Below are positions 11,910 to 17,907 of a stretch of DNA of 64,000 bases, in pieces (position 1 is the stretch's first letter; each line of letters opens with the position of its first letter). Location of the stretch: positions 1-64,000 of the forward strand of contig JAPOVQ010000021.1 of the NCBI GenBank assembly GCA_026708035.1, read 5' to 3'. Source of the stretch: Chloroflexota bacterium. GTDB taxonomy: Bacteria > Chloroflexota > UBA11872. The notes beneath the pieces were generated by a model that saw only the letters and a program-made list of their open reading frames with translations, ran no database searches and had not been told where the DNA came from. The position numbers and the translations under genes are program-made.

Positions 11910-12173
11910 TCACTCCGGCGCGTGCAGGTCGTCAAGCAACTCATCCACGCTGTCGAACTGCTGAAGACCGCCCGCGCGGGCTTCCCGCATCGCCGCGATC
12001 GTGGTGTCGTTGGGCGTCAGCGGCGCGAACGGCAGCGCCTTGTCGTGCGCCACCCGCGTCAGCAGCAGCCGCACCGCGTCAGACACGGTCAGGCCCATGG
12101 CGGCCAGCACCGCCGCCGCCTCTTCCTTCACCGCCCCGTCGATACGTGCCTGCACCAGCTTGTTGGCCGGCAT
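11910..12173 (-). CDS. RelB/DinJ-type antitoxin without adjacent toxin
   Basis: The product is 87 residues when started at the ATG at 12173, which has GAGGGG just upstream and gives MPANKLVQARIDGAVKEEA. The short N-terminal strand followed by AAVLAAMGLTVSDAVRLLLT is the ribbon-helix-helix signature of the RelB/DinJ family. RVAHDKALPFAPLTPNDTT is the usual linker that wraps a RelE/YafQ toxin. No RelE-like frame lies on either side: only repeats separate it from the Gfo/Idh gene and from the next spacer. It is therefore an orphan or solitary antitoxin, perhaps retained as a regulator or as protection against a toxin elsewhere. Confidence 0.8.
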   Translation of the reverse strand: MPANKLVQARIDGAVKEEAAAVLAAMGLTVSDAVRLLLTRVAHDKALPFAPLTPNDTTIAAMREARAGGLQQFDSVDELLDDLHAPE

Positions 12174-12559
12174 CGATGCCCCTCGTCTGGGTGCGCCACC
12201 CAATAGTGTGAATGACGTTGTAATGCACATCGGCCCAGGCTGCGGTCCGCCTGGGGAAACTCAAGCGCGGCTGGTCCGGTCCCCTTGTATGTGCCAGGGC
12301 GCGCATGTTCCCAGGACTCCCGGAACGTCCGAGGGCAGACGCCGGGCCGGGACAGACCGATTAGCCCTGGGTCCCTTGCGAGACCGTGGGAGAGCGGGAC
12401 CGCCCCGGCCCGTAGTGCTCTCCCATCCCAGGGAGAGGGGGTCGGAAGTTGCTCGACTCAGTTCGGGTTTGGTCCCTTCTCCCCCGGTGGGATAAGGCTA
12501 GGATGAGGGGGATTCGGGAATGGCCGAAGGGTTGCGCGCAGGCTTCCCTTTGTGGGAAC
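12174..12559. repeat. Intergenic spacer with two family A elements
   Basis: Family A copies lie at 12418-12440 (CTCTCCCATCCCAGGGAGAGG) and 12473-12511 (CCCTTCTCCCCCGGTGGGATAAGG with an AGGATGAGGGG tail). No gene is supported. Confidence 0.7.
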
Positions 12560-13406: not shown

Positions 13407-13842
13407 TCACGACGCGGAGTCTCCGTAGCACACAACCTCGACGCCATACTTCTCAGCCAAGGGCCCAAGAACTGCGTCGTTCCACTCGCACACGGCAACG
13501 GACATGACAGTCCTGGGTCGAAAGGCACGCATCAACTCCCTGGAGAACAACGCCTGTCCCAGCAGATACATCCCGAGCCTGCCCGTCTTGGTCTGGACGA
13601 CGACTATGTCCTTGTCCCTGAGGTCCTGCTCAGCGTGTTCGGCCCGATCCAGAATCCGCTTTGGTCCGCCAAGAATGATCACCCCGTCCAAATCCCGATA
13701 GCCTTGTTGACCCCGCACCGCCCTGACTGCACGGAACTCCTCCATGAGTGTCCCGCCGACTGACTCCCAGTAGCGGCGAGTTAGCGGCGTCTCATACTTG
13801 CTAACCGGCGACCTCCCAAAGGCGTAGCTACCGAGTCGGTAC
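13407..13842 (-). pseudogene. 5'-truncated gene of unknown function
   Basis: The first available start is the ATG at 13745, giving 112 residues (MEEFRAVRAVRGQQGYRDLD... ending EKYGVEVVCYGDSAS). The frame remains convincingly protein-like for about 32 codons upstream of that ATG (LYRLGSYAFGRSPVSKYETP then LTRRYWESVGGTL). There is no start codon before it hits a TGA inside the end of the neighbouring membrane-protein gene. The original N-terminus therefore seems to be lost at a junction with that gene's stop codon. The visible part alternates strands and helices (DGVIILGGPKR, DIVVVQTKTGRL) like an alpha/beta domain, but I do not recognise the family. Confidence 0.55.
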
Positions 13843-13845
13843 AGC

Positions 13846-15306
13846 CTACGCCGGCGCTCCCAGGATCACAGGCAGGGTGAGGCCCACCACGAGCACCAGC
13901 GCCCAGAGGGCCGGGGCGGCGCTTTGGAGGGCCTCGCGGCGGCGCTCAAGGCGCGCCTCGTCGGCCTGGCGGCGGGCGATCCACCAGGGGTTGTGGCGGG
14001 TCTCGAACCAGTGATAGGTCAGCCCCAGCCCCGCGCCGTAGGCCAGGTGCCCGACCAGGCTCGCCGTCAATGAGGCGGCGCCGGCCGCCGACCACGCGGG
14101 CGTGGCGCCGAGCAGCATGGGCATGAGGATCTGCGGGCCGAGAATCCAGAGGAAGAAGCCGTAGGAGACTCCCCAGCCCACGGCTGAGCCCGCGTCGTAG
14201 CTCTGGCGGCGGAAGAGCAGGCCGTAGGCCGCGCCGAAGAGCATGGCGATGACGAGGTGGATCACCAGCCCTGCAATGTCGGACTCGCCGCCCATGAGTC
14301 CCGCCACGCCGCGCAGCGCGCCGACCTGGACCATGACGTAGGTGAAGAGCAGTCCGCCGACGACGCCGGCGGCAATGCCGCGTCCCAGGGCGCGCAGGCC
14401 GCGGGTCCCCACGCCTTCCTCGTCGTCCGAGCTGTCGACCTCATCGAAGAGGACGCGCCAGAGCCCGCGCAGCCATTGATAGCCCACGCCGAGAAAGCCG
14501 CCGAAGACGAGATAGCCGAGCAGCGCGGGGTAGGCGTCCGCGGCGGCGCCTGCCGACCAGGGGAGGCCACCCTCCAGGATGAGCGGGAGGACCGTCAGCC
14601 GCAGCACGACCCAGAGCAGGAAGCCGTACATCGCGCCGCGCACGAGTCCGGCCCCGGCGCTGTCGCTGGGGCGCTGGGCCAACGCCGCGAATCCCGCCCC
14701 GGCGACCGCGCCGACGATCAGCGCGGCCAGCCAGGCCGGCGCCCCGGCCGTGTCGGCCGGCAGCGCGGCGAACGTGGGCGTCTGCCCCTGGTCGTTCAGC
14801 AGGCCCGCCGCGATCGCCGCCGCCGCGAGTCCCGCGGCAGCCCCGAGACCGATCCCCGTGAGCGACGGCCGGTGCACCACCGGCCGGCTGAGGACCAGCA
14901 GCGCCAGGCCCGTCGTGGCGCCGAAGAGCAGGAAGCCGAGCAGCAGGTCGAACGACGACTGCGCGGCGGCCAGCGACCAGGTGACCGGCTGTCCGGAGGT
15001 GAGCGGGTAGAGCGTGAGGGGGTCGAGGAACCAGACGACCGCGCCGTAGGCGAGGCCCCAGAACACCAGGGCGTCGTTGCGGCGCGCCTGGTTGCGCACC
15101 AGGGCCGCGAACAGCACGCCGAACACCGCCGAGAGCGCGAAGTGCACCACCAGCCCGACACCCAGCGACTCGCGGGCGGTGACGATGAGCGCCATCGACG
15201 CCATCATCCCGAGCTCCAGCATGGCGAGGGCCAGCACCACGCCGCCCACCAGCCCGGCCAGCGCGCCGGTCAGCAACCATGCGCCGAGGCGATCGGAGCG
15301 GATCAT
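13846..15306 (-). CDS. Membrane protein of three tandem four-helix modules
   Basis: The 486-residue integral membrane protein is made of three repeats of about 150 residues. Each has a Gly/Ala-rich first helix, a second helix of the type VVHFALSAVFGVLFAALV or VIHLVIAMLFGAAYGLLF, a third of the type GxxYGxxLWxLxPxxLxP, then a PxWS loop and a last helix LxGHLxFGxxLG. The same module is fused to the N-terminus of the NDH-2 protein encoded just upstream, and the two genes overlap by 4 nt (ATGA). This points to a membrane partner or anchor of that dehydrogenase. No metal, haem or transport signature was recognised, although conserved His (GHL) and Trp residues recur in the modules. Confidence 0.8.
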   Translation of the reverse strand: MIRSDRLGAWLLTGALAGLVGGVVLALAMLELGMMASMALIVTARESLGVGLVVHFALSAVFGVLFAALVRNQARRNDALVFWGLAYGAVVWFLDPLTLYPLTSGQPVTWSLAAAQSSFDLLLGFLLFGATTGLALLVLSRPVVHRPSLTGIGLGAAAGLAAAAIAAGLLNDQGQTPTFAALPADTAGAPAWLAALIVGAVAGAGFAALAQRPSDSAGAGLVRGAMYGFLLWVVLRLTVLPLILEGGLPWSAGAAADAYPALLGYLVFGGFLGVGYQWLRGLWRVLFDEVDSSDDEEGVGTRGLRALGRGIAAGVVGGLLFTYVMVQVGALRGVAGLMGGESDIAGLVIHLVIAMLFGAAYGLLFRRQSYDAGSAVGWGVSYGFFLWILGPQILMPMLLGATPAWSAAGAASLTASLVGHLAYGAGLGLTYHWFETRHNPWWIARRQADEARLERRREALQSAAPALWALVLVVGLTLPVILGAPA

Positions 15307-17144
15307 GCGTCCCGCCCCACCGGCATCACCGGCTCGGGTGCGCGAGGGGTGTCGGCATCACCGTCACCAGCGCCAGCACTCGGCTCCGCCGCATCCGACG
15401 GCCCGGGCAGCAGCACGATGTCGCGCGGGAACAGCAGGTCGATGGCCCAGTCGAGCGCCACCCGCACCTTGCGGTCCATGCCCGGCAGCTTGGTGAAGTA
15501 GATCGTGCGCCACATGACCCAGGCGACGAATCCGGAGAACTTGCGGCCGGCCACTTCGGCGGCGGCGGTGCGAGACCCGAGCGCGACCAGCGATCCGATG
15601 GCGCGGTAGCTGAACGGCTTCGGCGCTTGCCCGCGGGCAACGGCCACGACGTTGTCGGCCACGGCCTTGCCCTGGCGGATCGCGTGCTGCGCGGTGGGCG
15701 GGTGAAAGGCGCCGGGCCGATTCACGTCGGGCACCTGCGCCCCGTCGCCCAAGGCCCACACGCCGTCGAGGCCCGGCACTTGCAGCGTGGGCTCGACGAC
15801 AAGTTGACCGCGCCGGTTGCGTTCGCAGGGCATCCCGCGCAGCAGTGGGCTGGGCTGATTGCCAGCGGTCCAGACCAGCGTGCGCGTCGGAATCCGGGTG
15901 TCGTCGTCGAGGGTCACGCTCTCGGCATCGGCGGCGGCCACGCGCTGGCCCAGCACGAACTTGATCCCGCGGCGCTCCAGCTTTTCGCGGGCGTAGTCGC
16001 CGAGCTCGCGGCTGAGCTCGGGGATGATGCGGTCGCTCGAGTGCACCAGCACGAACCGTGGCTCGTCGCGCCCAATGCCGGGGTAGTAGCGGCGCACGCT
16101 GCGCACGAGGTCGAAGAGCTCGGCGACGGCTTCGGTGCCCGCGAACCCGCCACCGGCGACGACGAAGGTCAGCAGCCCTTGCCGCGCGGGCGCGTCGGCC
16201 TGCTGCTCCGCGGTCTCCAGCGCCGCGATGACGTGGTTGCGCAGGCGGGCGGCGTCTTCGAGGGTCTTGAGGGTGAAGGCGTGCTCGGCCAGCCCCGGGA
16301 GCCCGTAGAACGCCGGCACCGAGCCGACGGCCACAATCAAATGGTCGTAGGCGATCCGCTCCGTCCGATCGGAACCTATGGGGATCGCGGTGATGCACTT
16401 GGCGTCGGCGTCGACCGCCTGGACGTCGGCGTGGCGAAAGCGCGTGTGCGGGCATGCGACGCGGATTGGAGCCGAGATCGCCTGGGCGTCCAGGCCGCTC
16501 GACGCGACTTCCGCAAGCATCGGAGTGAAGAGCAGGAAGTTGCTGCGGCTCACCAGGGTCACGTCGAGACACACGTCTCTCCGGTGCAGCTCTTCGAGGC
16601 GCTGCGCGGCACCCATGCCGGCAAAGCCGCCGCCGAGGATTACCACGCGCACGGGTTGGCCGGCCGCGCGAGCGGACGTGGGCGACTCGGCGCCGTGGCC
16701 GACCCCGGCGCGAGCCGCCAAAGCCAGCAGCACGCCGAGCCCCCCGCCGAACATCAGATGCGCGATGAGGCTGGGGAAGTGCCGCGACGCGGCCTCGACC
16801 GACCACGTGGGCGCCGCGCCGTCCAGCGCCGGACCGATGGTGAGCGGACCGACGACCCAGAGGATTAGCCCCGTCATGAGCGCCAGCGTGATGCGCGAGG
16901 CGTGCTCGCCCTGCCGACGCAGCGGAATCACGCGCGCAAATGCCCCGCCCACCGCGCCGCCAATGACCAGGTGAACGGCAAGCAGCGCGCCTTCCACCGG
17001 CGATCCCAGCAAACCGTCGAACCCGCCCATGGGCGTCGCCGGAACCAGGAACACGAGCGCGGCCGCGGCTCCCGCCAGGGCGCCGATCGGCACAGGCTCA
17101 CGCGCGATGCGCGTCACCAGGCGACCGGCGCGCCGGCGGCGCAC
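15303..17144 (-). CDS. NDH-2-type NADH dehydrogenase with N-terminal membrane module
   Basis: This is a 613-residue flavoprotein. Residues about 1-150 form a four-helix membrane module (ending TWSVEAASRHFPSLIAHLMF). They are followed by a pyridine-nucleotide-disulfide oxidoreductase domain, with an FAD-binding motif VRVVILGGGFAGMGAAQRLE near residue 167, an NAD-binding motif FVVAGGGFAGTEAVAEL in the middle, and the second FAD motif GVWALGDGAQVPD. Type II NADH dehydrogenases pass electrons from NADH to quinone at the cytoplasmic membrane face without pumping protons. The N-terminal fusion is unusual, since NDH-2 usually binds through a C-terminal amphipathic segment. It starts with GTG one base after the DM13 gene's stop and overlaps the next gene, so the three form one operon. 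Confidence 0.9.
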   Translation of the reverse strand: MRRRRAGRLVTRIAREPVPIGALAGAAAALVFLVPATPMGGFDGLLGSPVEGALLAVHLVIGGAVGGAFARVIPLRRQGEHASRITLALMTGLILWVVGPLTIGPALDGAAPTWSVEAASRHFPSLIAHLMFGGGLGVLLALAARAGVGHGAESPTSARAAGQPVRVVILGGGFAGMGAAQRLEELHRRDVCLDVTLVSRSNFLLFTPMLAEVASSGLDAQAISAPIRVACPHTRFRHADVQAVDADAKCITAIPIGSDRTERIAYDHLIVAVGSVPAFYGLPGLAEHAFTLKTLEDAARLRNHVIAALETAEQQADAPARQGLLTFVVAGGGFAGTEAVAELFDLVRSVRRYYPGIGRDEPRFVLVHSSDRIIPELSRELGDYAREKLERRGIKFVLGQRVAAADAESVTLDDDTRIPTRTLVWTAGNQPSPLLRGMPCERNRRGQLVVEPTLQVPGLDGVWALGDGAQVPDVNRPGAFHPPTAQHAIRQGKAVADNVVAVARGQAPKPFSYRAIGSLVALGSRTAAAEVAGRKFSGFVAWVMWRTIYFTKLPGMDRKVRVALDWAIDLLFPRDIVLLPGPSDAAEPSAGAGDGDADTPRAPEPVMPVGRDA

Positions 17145-17145
17145 G

Positions 17146-17907
17146 TTACGCGGGGAGGGTGGCGGTCGCGAACACGACGTGGAACGGCACGCAGTAGATG
17201 ACGACGCTGTTGTACGCCGAAAGGTCGGTGCCGGCCGGGATCTCGTAGTTCTGGTTGCCGATGTTGCCCTTCAGCGCGCCCACGTCGATGTAGTCGCCCA
17301 GCTGCTGGCTCGACGCCGGCGCGGGCGACGACGACAGCAGCACGCTCAGCGCCGGACCGTTGGTGACCTTGAAGTCCGTCAGGCGCAGCACCAGCTTGTC
17401 GTCGGGCGTGCGGAAGATGGTGGCGGTTCCGGAGCCGCGGTGAAAGTCGTCGGCGCCGCGGAACTGGCCCTCGCGCAAGAGCTCAGGCTGCGGCGCGGGT
17501 TCCGGCTGCGGCGCGGGTTCCGGCTGCGGCGTGGCCTCCGGCTCGGGCGTGGCCTCCGGCTCGGGCGTGGCCTCCGGCTCGGGCATGGCGGGCATCGGCT
17601 CGTCCATCATGGTGTCGGGCATGGCGGCGGCCGCCTCCATCACCCGCTCCTGGACCACCATGCGGTCCGCTTCGGCGAGAGCCTCGATCTCCATCAATGT
17701 GGGCATGGCGGCCTCGAAGTCGGCGACCATCTCCTGCTTCTCTTCCTCGGTCATGGTCTCCATGGCCGCGGGTTCCGGAAGCTCGAAGGGGAACGCCTCG
17801 TCCACCACGGTGTCGCGAAAGAGCGGCGACACAAGCCACCAGGCAATCGCCACCGCCGCGATGATTCCGACTATTCCGCCGCCGATCAGCACTCGTCGTC
17901 GAGTCAT
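17146..17907 (-). CDS. Membrane-anchored DM13-domain protein
   Basis: The protein has 253 residues. An N-terminal membrane anchor (VLIGGGIVGIIAAVAIAWWL, residues 6-25) is followed by an acidic, Met-rich helix region, a repetitive Pro/Glu linker (PEPEATPEPEATPQPEPAP) and a C-terminal DM13 domain (GSGTATIFRTPDDKLVLRL, DVGALKGNIGNQNYEIPAGT, YNSVVIYCVPFHVVFATATL). DM13 domains are proposed to take part in redox reactions through a nearly invariant Cys, present here in the IYCVPF motif. The domain faces outside. It leads an operon with an NDH-2 fusion and a multi-module membrane protein, which fits an electron-transfer role at the membrane. Confidence 0.87.
   Translation of the reverse strand: MTRRRVLIGGGIVGIIAAVAIAWWLVSPLFRDTVVDEAFPFELPEPAAMETMTEEEKQEMVADFEAAMPTLMEIEALAEADRMVVQERVMEAAAAMPDTMMDEPMPAMPEPEATPEPEATPEPEATPQPEPAPQPEPAPQPELLREGQFRGADDFHRGSGTATIFRTPDDKLVLRLTDFKVTNGPALSVLLSSSPAPASSQQLGDYIDVGALKGNIGNQNYEIPAGTDLSAYNSVVIYCVPFHVVFATATLPA

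Follow-up and report, generated by a model that had tools for sequence, protein, structure and literature searches.

Organization of the locus

The window, i.e. the whole 64,000-nt stretch of DNA that was analysed, carries a three-gene operon on its minus strand, which spans positions 13846-17907 (Table 1). The first gene encodes a DM13 protein, the second a fusion of a membrane module with an NDH-2 flavoprotein, and the third a membrane protein in which the same module occurs three times (the triple-module protein). The genes are tightly coupled, as a preliminary description of this DNA had stated. Only 1 bp separates the stop of the DM13 gene from the start of the NDH-2 fusion gene, which in turn overlaps the triple-module gene by 4 bp (ATGA). 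The DM13 protein consists of an N-terminal transmembrane (TM) anchor, a Pro/Glu-rich linker and a C-terminal DM13 domain, which scored 67.4 bits against PF10517 (cut-off 25). The anchored DM13 protein described upstream of the pair was thus confirmed. Its sole Cys, at about residue 239, was kept in 6/6 members of the window's genus, and we take it to be the conserved Cys of DM13 domains. Two other genes on the same strand were noted nearby: a 112-aa gene that follows the operon after about 100 bp, recurs in another locus (L033) and has a weak FakA-like hit as its best Pfam match, and a RelB-type antitoxin gene.

Table 1. Positions of the operon genes, their modules and two nearby genes in the window
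Feature	Position	Strand	Remarks
DM13 protein	17146-17907	-	253 aa; first operon gene; Pfam PF10517 2e-18
DM13 domain	17155-17448	-	C-terminal in the DM13 protein
NDH-2 fusion (module M4 + NDH-2 flavoprotein)	15303-17144	-	613 aa, GTG start; Pfam Pyr_redox_2 2e-44, NDH2_C 1e-8
Module M4	16707-17114	-	four helices; His58 (TM2), His129 (TM4); from similarity to M1-M3 and model helices
NDH-2 core	15417-16655	-	Glu338, His368 (codon 16041-16043), AQxAxR motif at 485-490
Triple-module membrane protein	13846-15306	-	486 aa, 13 helices; AlphaFold2 model
Module M1	14878-15306	-	His55 kept; Phe125 in place of the TM4 His
Module M2	14437-14874	-	His pair missing in the window's clade
Module M3	13987-14409	-	His350 and His420 near-universal
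Thirteenth helix, C-terminal in the triple-module protein	13861-13971	-	model helix 446-482; conserved APALW
112-aa gene	13407-13745	-	
RelB-type antitoxin gene	11910-12230	-	Pfam

Four homologous membrane modules

Four modules of about 140 residues, each composed of four helices, were recognized: M1 to M3 in the 486-aa protein and M4 on the NDH-2 protein. Local alignment with BLOSUM62 gave scores of 127-198 for all six pairs, whereas the maxima after shuffling were 77 (500 full shuffles per pair) and 90 (500 shuffles with the hydrophobic positions kept), i.e. 0/500 in every case. The absence of mutual similarity, which would have spoken against a shared module, was thus not encountered, and the earlier proposal of a module used three times in one protein and once more on the dehydrogenase held for every pair. 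A chance likeness of Gly/Ala-rich helices was ruled out by these shuffles together with the module tree. The motifs ascribed to the module were found in part: PxWS and GHLxFG are present, yet missing from some copies. In the window, M2 has no His, M1 lacks the TM4 His, and M4 reads AHLMFG.

The AlphaFold2 model of the triple-module protein, based on an alignment of 35 sequences, had a mean pLDDT of 89.9 and a pTM of 0.91. One helix layout is repeated three times in the model, with a thirteenth helix at the C-terminus. A Foldseek search with this model gave no match at E <= 0.001, and the best VIA-align match was 9u4t_A, from the MSMEG_3496 complex, with a Z of 5.9 over 117 residues at 4.4 Å. 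No match, to a solved cytochrome b or otherwise, exceeded what helical arrangements commonly give. Among solved structures, a profile search found no sequence homologue and a single-sequence search gave two chance-level matches. Such weak Foldseek and VIA-align results do not prove that the fold is new.

In a tree of 145 modules, built from few columns and with several long branches, M3 of all lineages formed one clade (support 100/98), and M1, M2 and M4 were distributed over two or three blocks corresponding to clades of the system. The single M3 clade across phyla implied that the triplication predates the spread across phyla.

Assignment to the DUF1440/YagU family

The Pfam matches place the module in the DUF1440 family, that of E. 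coli YagU. The DUF1440 model (PF07274) matched 35/35 aligned triple-module proteins at E <= 0.01, with a best value of 2.6e-14. The 486-aa protein of the window scored 52.9 bits as a whole, above the curated cut-off of 34.7; this score is the sum over two stretches, and single modules fall below the cut-off. DUF6789 (PF20587) matched 10/35 triple-module proteins (best 5e-7). The whole-protein score of the window protein was 22.3 bits, below the curated cut-off of 27.1, and M3 of the sister genus alone scored 31.2 bits. Direct comparison of YagU with the module alignments by hhalign (A5, and A3 of the triple-module proteins) was not significant; in one of the two comparisons the probability was 0.7%, with the His pairs in register. 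The family link is therefore drawn from the Pfam model. YagU has been reported to be acid-induced and to contribute to acid resistance (PMC2270276). In E. coli K-12, yagU (L185, 302991-303605) adjoins paoABC, a molybdenum/FAD/Fe-S aldehyde dehydrogenase, so this is another DUF1440 gene next to a redox enzyme.

Paired His site and membrane topology

Many module copies carry a pair of His residues, located towards the outer ends of TM2 and TM4, respectively. Among 135 copies, both were present in 68 and neither in 55; only the first was found in 9 and only the second in 3 (the His of M2 was counted at position 195). Because the two residues are kept or lost jointly, they point to one shared site. 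Both His of M3 (His350 and His420) occurred in 33/35 orthologues, and Trp residues are near-invariant in the same module. M4 had both in only 4/30 fusions. The pattern in the main clade is M2+M3. In the window's clade the pair is seen in M1 and M3, and partly in M4, with M1 of the window having lost one His. Conserved His and Trp residues as candidate ligands, which the preliminary description had advised looking for across the four copies, were thus found near-invariant in M3 and not across the set, since M2 of the window has no His and M1 only one. Standalone modules had both His in 13/15 cases; neither was found in two weak members (L096 and L097).

According to the distribution of positive charges, the dehydrogenase is cytoplasmic, as are the N-termini and the TM2-3 loops, and the outer side bears the His pair and a conserved Trp loop. 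One value went against this topology, the average of 1.4 Lys/Arg in the TM3-4 loop of M1. By this topology the His sites would be remote from the FAD, so electrons seem unlikely to pass directly from FAD to His, and a quinone that moves between the two is favoured instead. Wherever the His pair occurs it is close to the outer face, and a chain of cofactors spanning the membrane is therefore not apparent.

The NDH-2 fusion enzyme

The model of the fusion protein showed a four-helix unit joined to an NDH-2 (pLDDT 83.5, pTM 0.75). Its fold matched 9a63_B with a Z of 48.8 and the NDH-2 of C. thermarum (4nwz) with a Z of 46.7 (1.8 Å, 386 residues). The Rossmann glycines of the FAD and NAD(P)H domains, including GGGFAG, were invariant in 30/30 fusions, as was Glu338, the catalytic Glu after the second GxGxxG motif. 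Asp467 was also kept in all 30. The quinone motif read AQxAxR in 29/30 fusions and AQxAxH in one. In a published set of 1762 NDH-2s, the catalytic Glu equivalent to Glu338 (E172 in S. aureus) was reported in 97%, and AQxAxR is a known variant present in 15% (PMC5299459). Judged by its modelled fold and its residues, the fusion is a true NDH-2, for which NAD(P)H:quinone activity is predicted.

A distinct feature is His368, found in 30/30 fusions where the second strand of the NAD(P)H domain ends. This position is occupied by Asp in 9mqy and by Glu in 4nwz and 9pxk, and an Arg follows two residues after His368 in 18/30 fusions. Loss of the NADH-favouring acid has been reported to go with NADPH use in some NDH-2s, and a single residue is described as not settling the choice between NADH and NADPH (PMC11670749). 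NDH-2B of S. aureus is reported to prefer NADPH and so sets a precedent for NADPH:quinone activity (PMC11302666). Because His368 replaces the acid in all 30 fusions and pentose-phosphate genes are neighbours in three lineages (see below), NADPH is plausible as the electron donor. The electron source had been proposed to be NADH; the enzyme is indeed an NDH-2 of NAD(P)H type, yet NADH itself is uncertain with His in place of the NADH-favouring acid.

Distribution of the gene pair

Of the 19 family genomes, 17 encode the fusion, 16 of them in one piece and one across two contigs, and G006 and G018 lack it; the triple-module gene adjoins the fusion gene in those that carry it. Within the phylum, the module was present in 38/350 genomes. 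Outside the family there were 21 module-bearing genomes; stretches of 18 were read, and the full pair was found in four of them (G075, G281 with two copies, G301 and G328), most of the others encoding a single-module protein. In G281, a Ktedonobacteria genome (brp13), a DUF417-type gene lies upstream of each copy (L080/L081); the second copy has Tyr in place of the TM2 His of M3 and a shorter C-terminal tail.

A scan of GTDB genomes yielded 63 loci, 56 of them with a callable triple-module gene. An NDH-2 gene was directly upstream on the same strand in 49 of the 56; six loci end at a contig edge and one has none. Where enough upstream sequence was available, the arrangement was thus found in 49/50 loci. 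The exception, a TA06 MAG (L117), has no NDH-2 match elsewhere in its genome. The fused module was detected in 46 of the 49 adjacent NDH-2s, the other three having short or truncated ORFs. Genes of the fetched loci came from a simple ORF script, and their starts and small genes are approximate. The alignments used above (A3, 35 of the 56 triple-module proteins; A4, 30 of the 49 adjacent NDH-2 proteins) were chosen for complete ORFs and diversity. By record titles, and MAG labels may be wrong, the pair occurs in about eight phyla; the named groups are Chloroflexota, Acetothermia, Actinomycetota (including Nocardia and Rubrobacteraceae), Bacillota, Deltaproteobacteria, Acidobacteria, Eremiobacterota and an Opitutaceae MAG.

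The view of this locus as a redox operon built around a reused membrane module is upheld by these results. The modules are homologous, and an operon without conservation in any relative was not what we saw, as the pair is kept in 17/19 family genomes and in other phyla. No description of the pair was found in the open literature, a scope outside which most subscription papers and all preprints fall. The two-gene NAD(P)H dehydrogenase system is real and widespread, and apparently undescribed.

Association of DM13 with the pair

The DM13 gene lies upstream of the pair in 6/6 genomes of the window's genus and in 0/11 of the sister genus. One DM13 gene each was nevertheless present in 18/19 family genomes, including G018, which lacks the pair. 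The gene of the sister genus is a close relative, located at another place in 6/6 stretches looked at. DM13 without the module was found in eleven genomes from the same order or class. A wider check took in 44 of the 63 loci (41 genomes), and DM13 was found in 16/41 pair-bearing genomes. Of the two co-occurrences that had been named as a check, that with NDH-2 was seen (49/50 loci) and that with DM13 was inconstant, and DM13 was rejected as a constant partner. Three lineages have DM13 near the pair, namely the window's genus, an Eremiobacterota locus (L145) and a Nocardia locus (L151). Chance would give 0.05 such cases outside the genus, and the two observed hint that DM13 and the pair are occasionally linked in function. 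As a general electron acceptor of the pair DM13 is ruled out, and it is a lineage-specific partner. Contig C7 of another genome (G208) carries a standalone module some 15 kb from a DM13 gene (176531 and 191115).

Neighbouring genes and standalone modules

Genes of sugar metabolism were found beside the pair in 7 of about 50 non-redundant loci. The neighbours were rpe, glucokinase and transketolase in L107, and transketolase, transaldolase-phosphoglucose isomerase (PGI) and a 6-phosphogluconate dehydrogenase-like (6PGDH-like) gene in L153. In L117, the triple-module gene without NDH-2 is accompanied by a 6PGDH-like gene and glucose-6-phosphate dehydrogenase (G6PDH). GH15 enzymes lie beside the pair in L124, L131 and L136, and amylo-1,6-glucosidase in L137. 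Pentose-phosphate genes were immediate neighbours in three lineages, against 0.13-0.19 expected if a genome holds 8-12 such genes per 4500, so a chance origin is unlikely under these rough assumptions. DUF417 genes occurred near the pair in L107, L120, L130/L150 and L132; we take DUF417 to be the family of E. coli RclC, from a Cu(II)-reductase operon. Clustering of the neighbours revealed nothing beyond the pair that recurs in more than four lineage groups, and no metal gene that recurs beside the pair.

Ten standalone relatives (L085, L086, L088, L089, L090, L091, L093, L094, L095 and L159) are Met-rich, with 7.6-12.3% Met and MM runs, and all ten carry the His pair. The triple-module proteins, with a mean Met content of 2.8%, are not Met-rich. 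Neighbours of the standalone modules include CRP-type regulators (L085, L094), cupredoxins (L088), a DsbD-type protein (L086) and a Lipoprotein_15/CHRD protein (L089). The standalone Met-rich modules are possibly copper or thiol redox proteins.

Proposed role and alternative explanations

Module homology, the fixed gene pair, the intact NDH-2 core and the His pair in at least one module are established at the level of sequence. The reading to which we give somewhat more credence than doubt is that the NDH-2 fusion assembles with the triple-module protein into a single NAD(P)H dehydrogenase complex, integral to the membrane, with four DUF1440/YagU-type modules and about 17 helices. The flavoprotein would sit in the cytoplasm on M4, which in turn would dock on the three-module partner. 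It would oxidise NADPH or NADH and pass the electrons to a quinone at the membrane surface. The outer-face His pair, nearly always that of M3 plus that of M2 or of M1/M4 depending on the clade, may hold a quinone or a cofactor, for which heme b or a metal are candidates, and could thereby give the complex its specific acceptor. Judging from the pentose-phosphate and sugar genes nearby, the pair may serve to drain NADPH-level reductant. The DM13 protein would be an optional operon partner in the window's genus. Several observations speak against parts of this proposal: M4, which carries the enzyme, is mostly without the His pair, and L117 has a triple-module gene without NDH-2. Likewise, a single residue does not settle the donor, the outer position of the His sites disfavours direct transfer from FAD, the sugar genes concern 7 of about 50 loci with a chance estimate based on assumed gene numbers, and the TM3-4 loop of M1 disagrees with the topology.

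The modules might instead serve only as an anchor or scaffold, with the enzyme being an ordinary non-pumping, quinone-reducing NDH-2 and the membrane part keeping it or neighbouring enzymes in position. The scarcity of the His pair in M4 agrees with this, as do the NDH-2 core and a quinone motif within the known range (AQxAxR in 15% of NDH-2s in PMC5299459). We nevertheless regard it as rather unlikely, for it leaves unexplained the near-invariant His350/His420 and Trp of M3, the joint presence or absence of the His pair, and the same pair in standalone modules. A role of the modules in binding or moving copper or some other metal, with the NDH-2 domain acting as a metal reductase or supplying the reductant, appears quite improbable. 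The Met-rich standalone relatives with the same His pair would fit such a function, together with the cupredoxins and the DsbD-type protein beside two of them and DUF417 near the pair; however, the triple-module proteins are not Met-rich, and no metal gene recurs beside the pair.

The preliminary description had proposed that the modules conduct electrons from NADH across the membrane to a DM13 domain facing outward. The tight three-gene operon of the window's genus and the DM13 genes near the pair in L145 and L151 are in its favour. The route was not borne out by the wider survey, in which DM13 was away from the pair in the sister genus, absent from beside it in most of the 41 pair-bearing genomes, and encoded by relatives without the pair (G018) or without the module (the 11 genomes mentioned above), and we now consider it very improbable. 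The membrane complex favoured here could also be extended to a bolder form, which at present seems unlikely. It would be a multi-phylum NADPH dehydrogenase with four pseudo-symmetric YagU-type modules, one to three of them with a bis-His heme, or else copper, towards the outer face, that transfers electrons from pentose-phosphate NADPH to a quinone held inside the assembly and on to an outer-face acceptor. If true, this would imply a redox role for the whole DUF1440/YagU family.

Comparison with known systems

Rather than a new enzyme class, the system represents a variant of NDH-2 that has a membrane assembly of its own. With known NDH-2s (4nwz, the mycobacterial 9mqy and S. aureus NDH-2B) the fusion shares the FAD and NAD(P)H Rossmann domains and the catalytic Glu, and likewise the AQxAx motif and the C-terminal NDH2_C helices. 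It differs from 4nwz and 9mqy by the His in place of the NADH-favouring acid. NDH-2 has been described as a single-subunit monotopic enzyme (PMC5220320), whereas the fusion has a four-helix module and a 13-helix partner. NDH-2s are taken as simple monotopic entry points to respiration, and a widespread form that is fused to a large membrane assembly of its own, and almost always paired with it, would represent a new design for the oxidation of NAD(P)H.

YagU resembles the modules in its TM2 His and the Gly-His in TM4. It consists of one module, encoded beside paoABC, in contrast to the pair with its triplicated module and a further copy fused to the enzyme. The pair ties the uncharacterised DUF1440/YagU family to a firm functional association, with a precise site at His350/His420. 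DUF6789, a family without known function, is shared with part of the triple-module proteins by Pfam match. The DM13 protein of the window matches PF10517 above the cut-off, and DM13 is not a constant partner of the pair.
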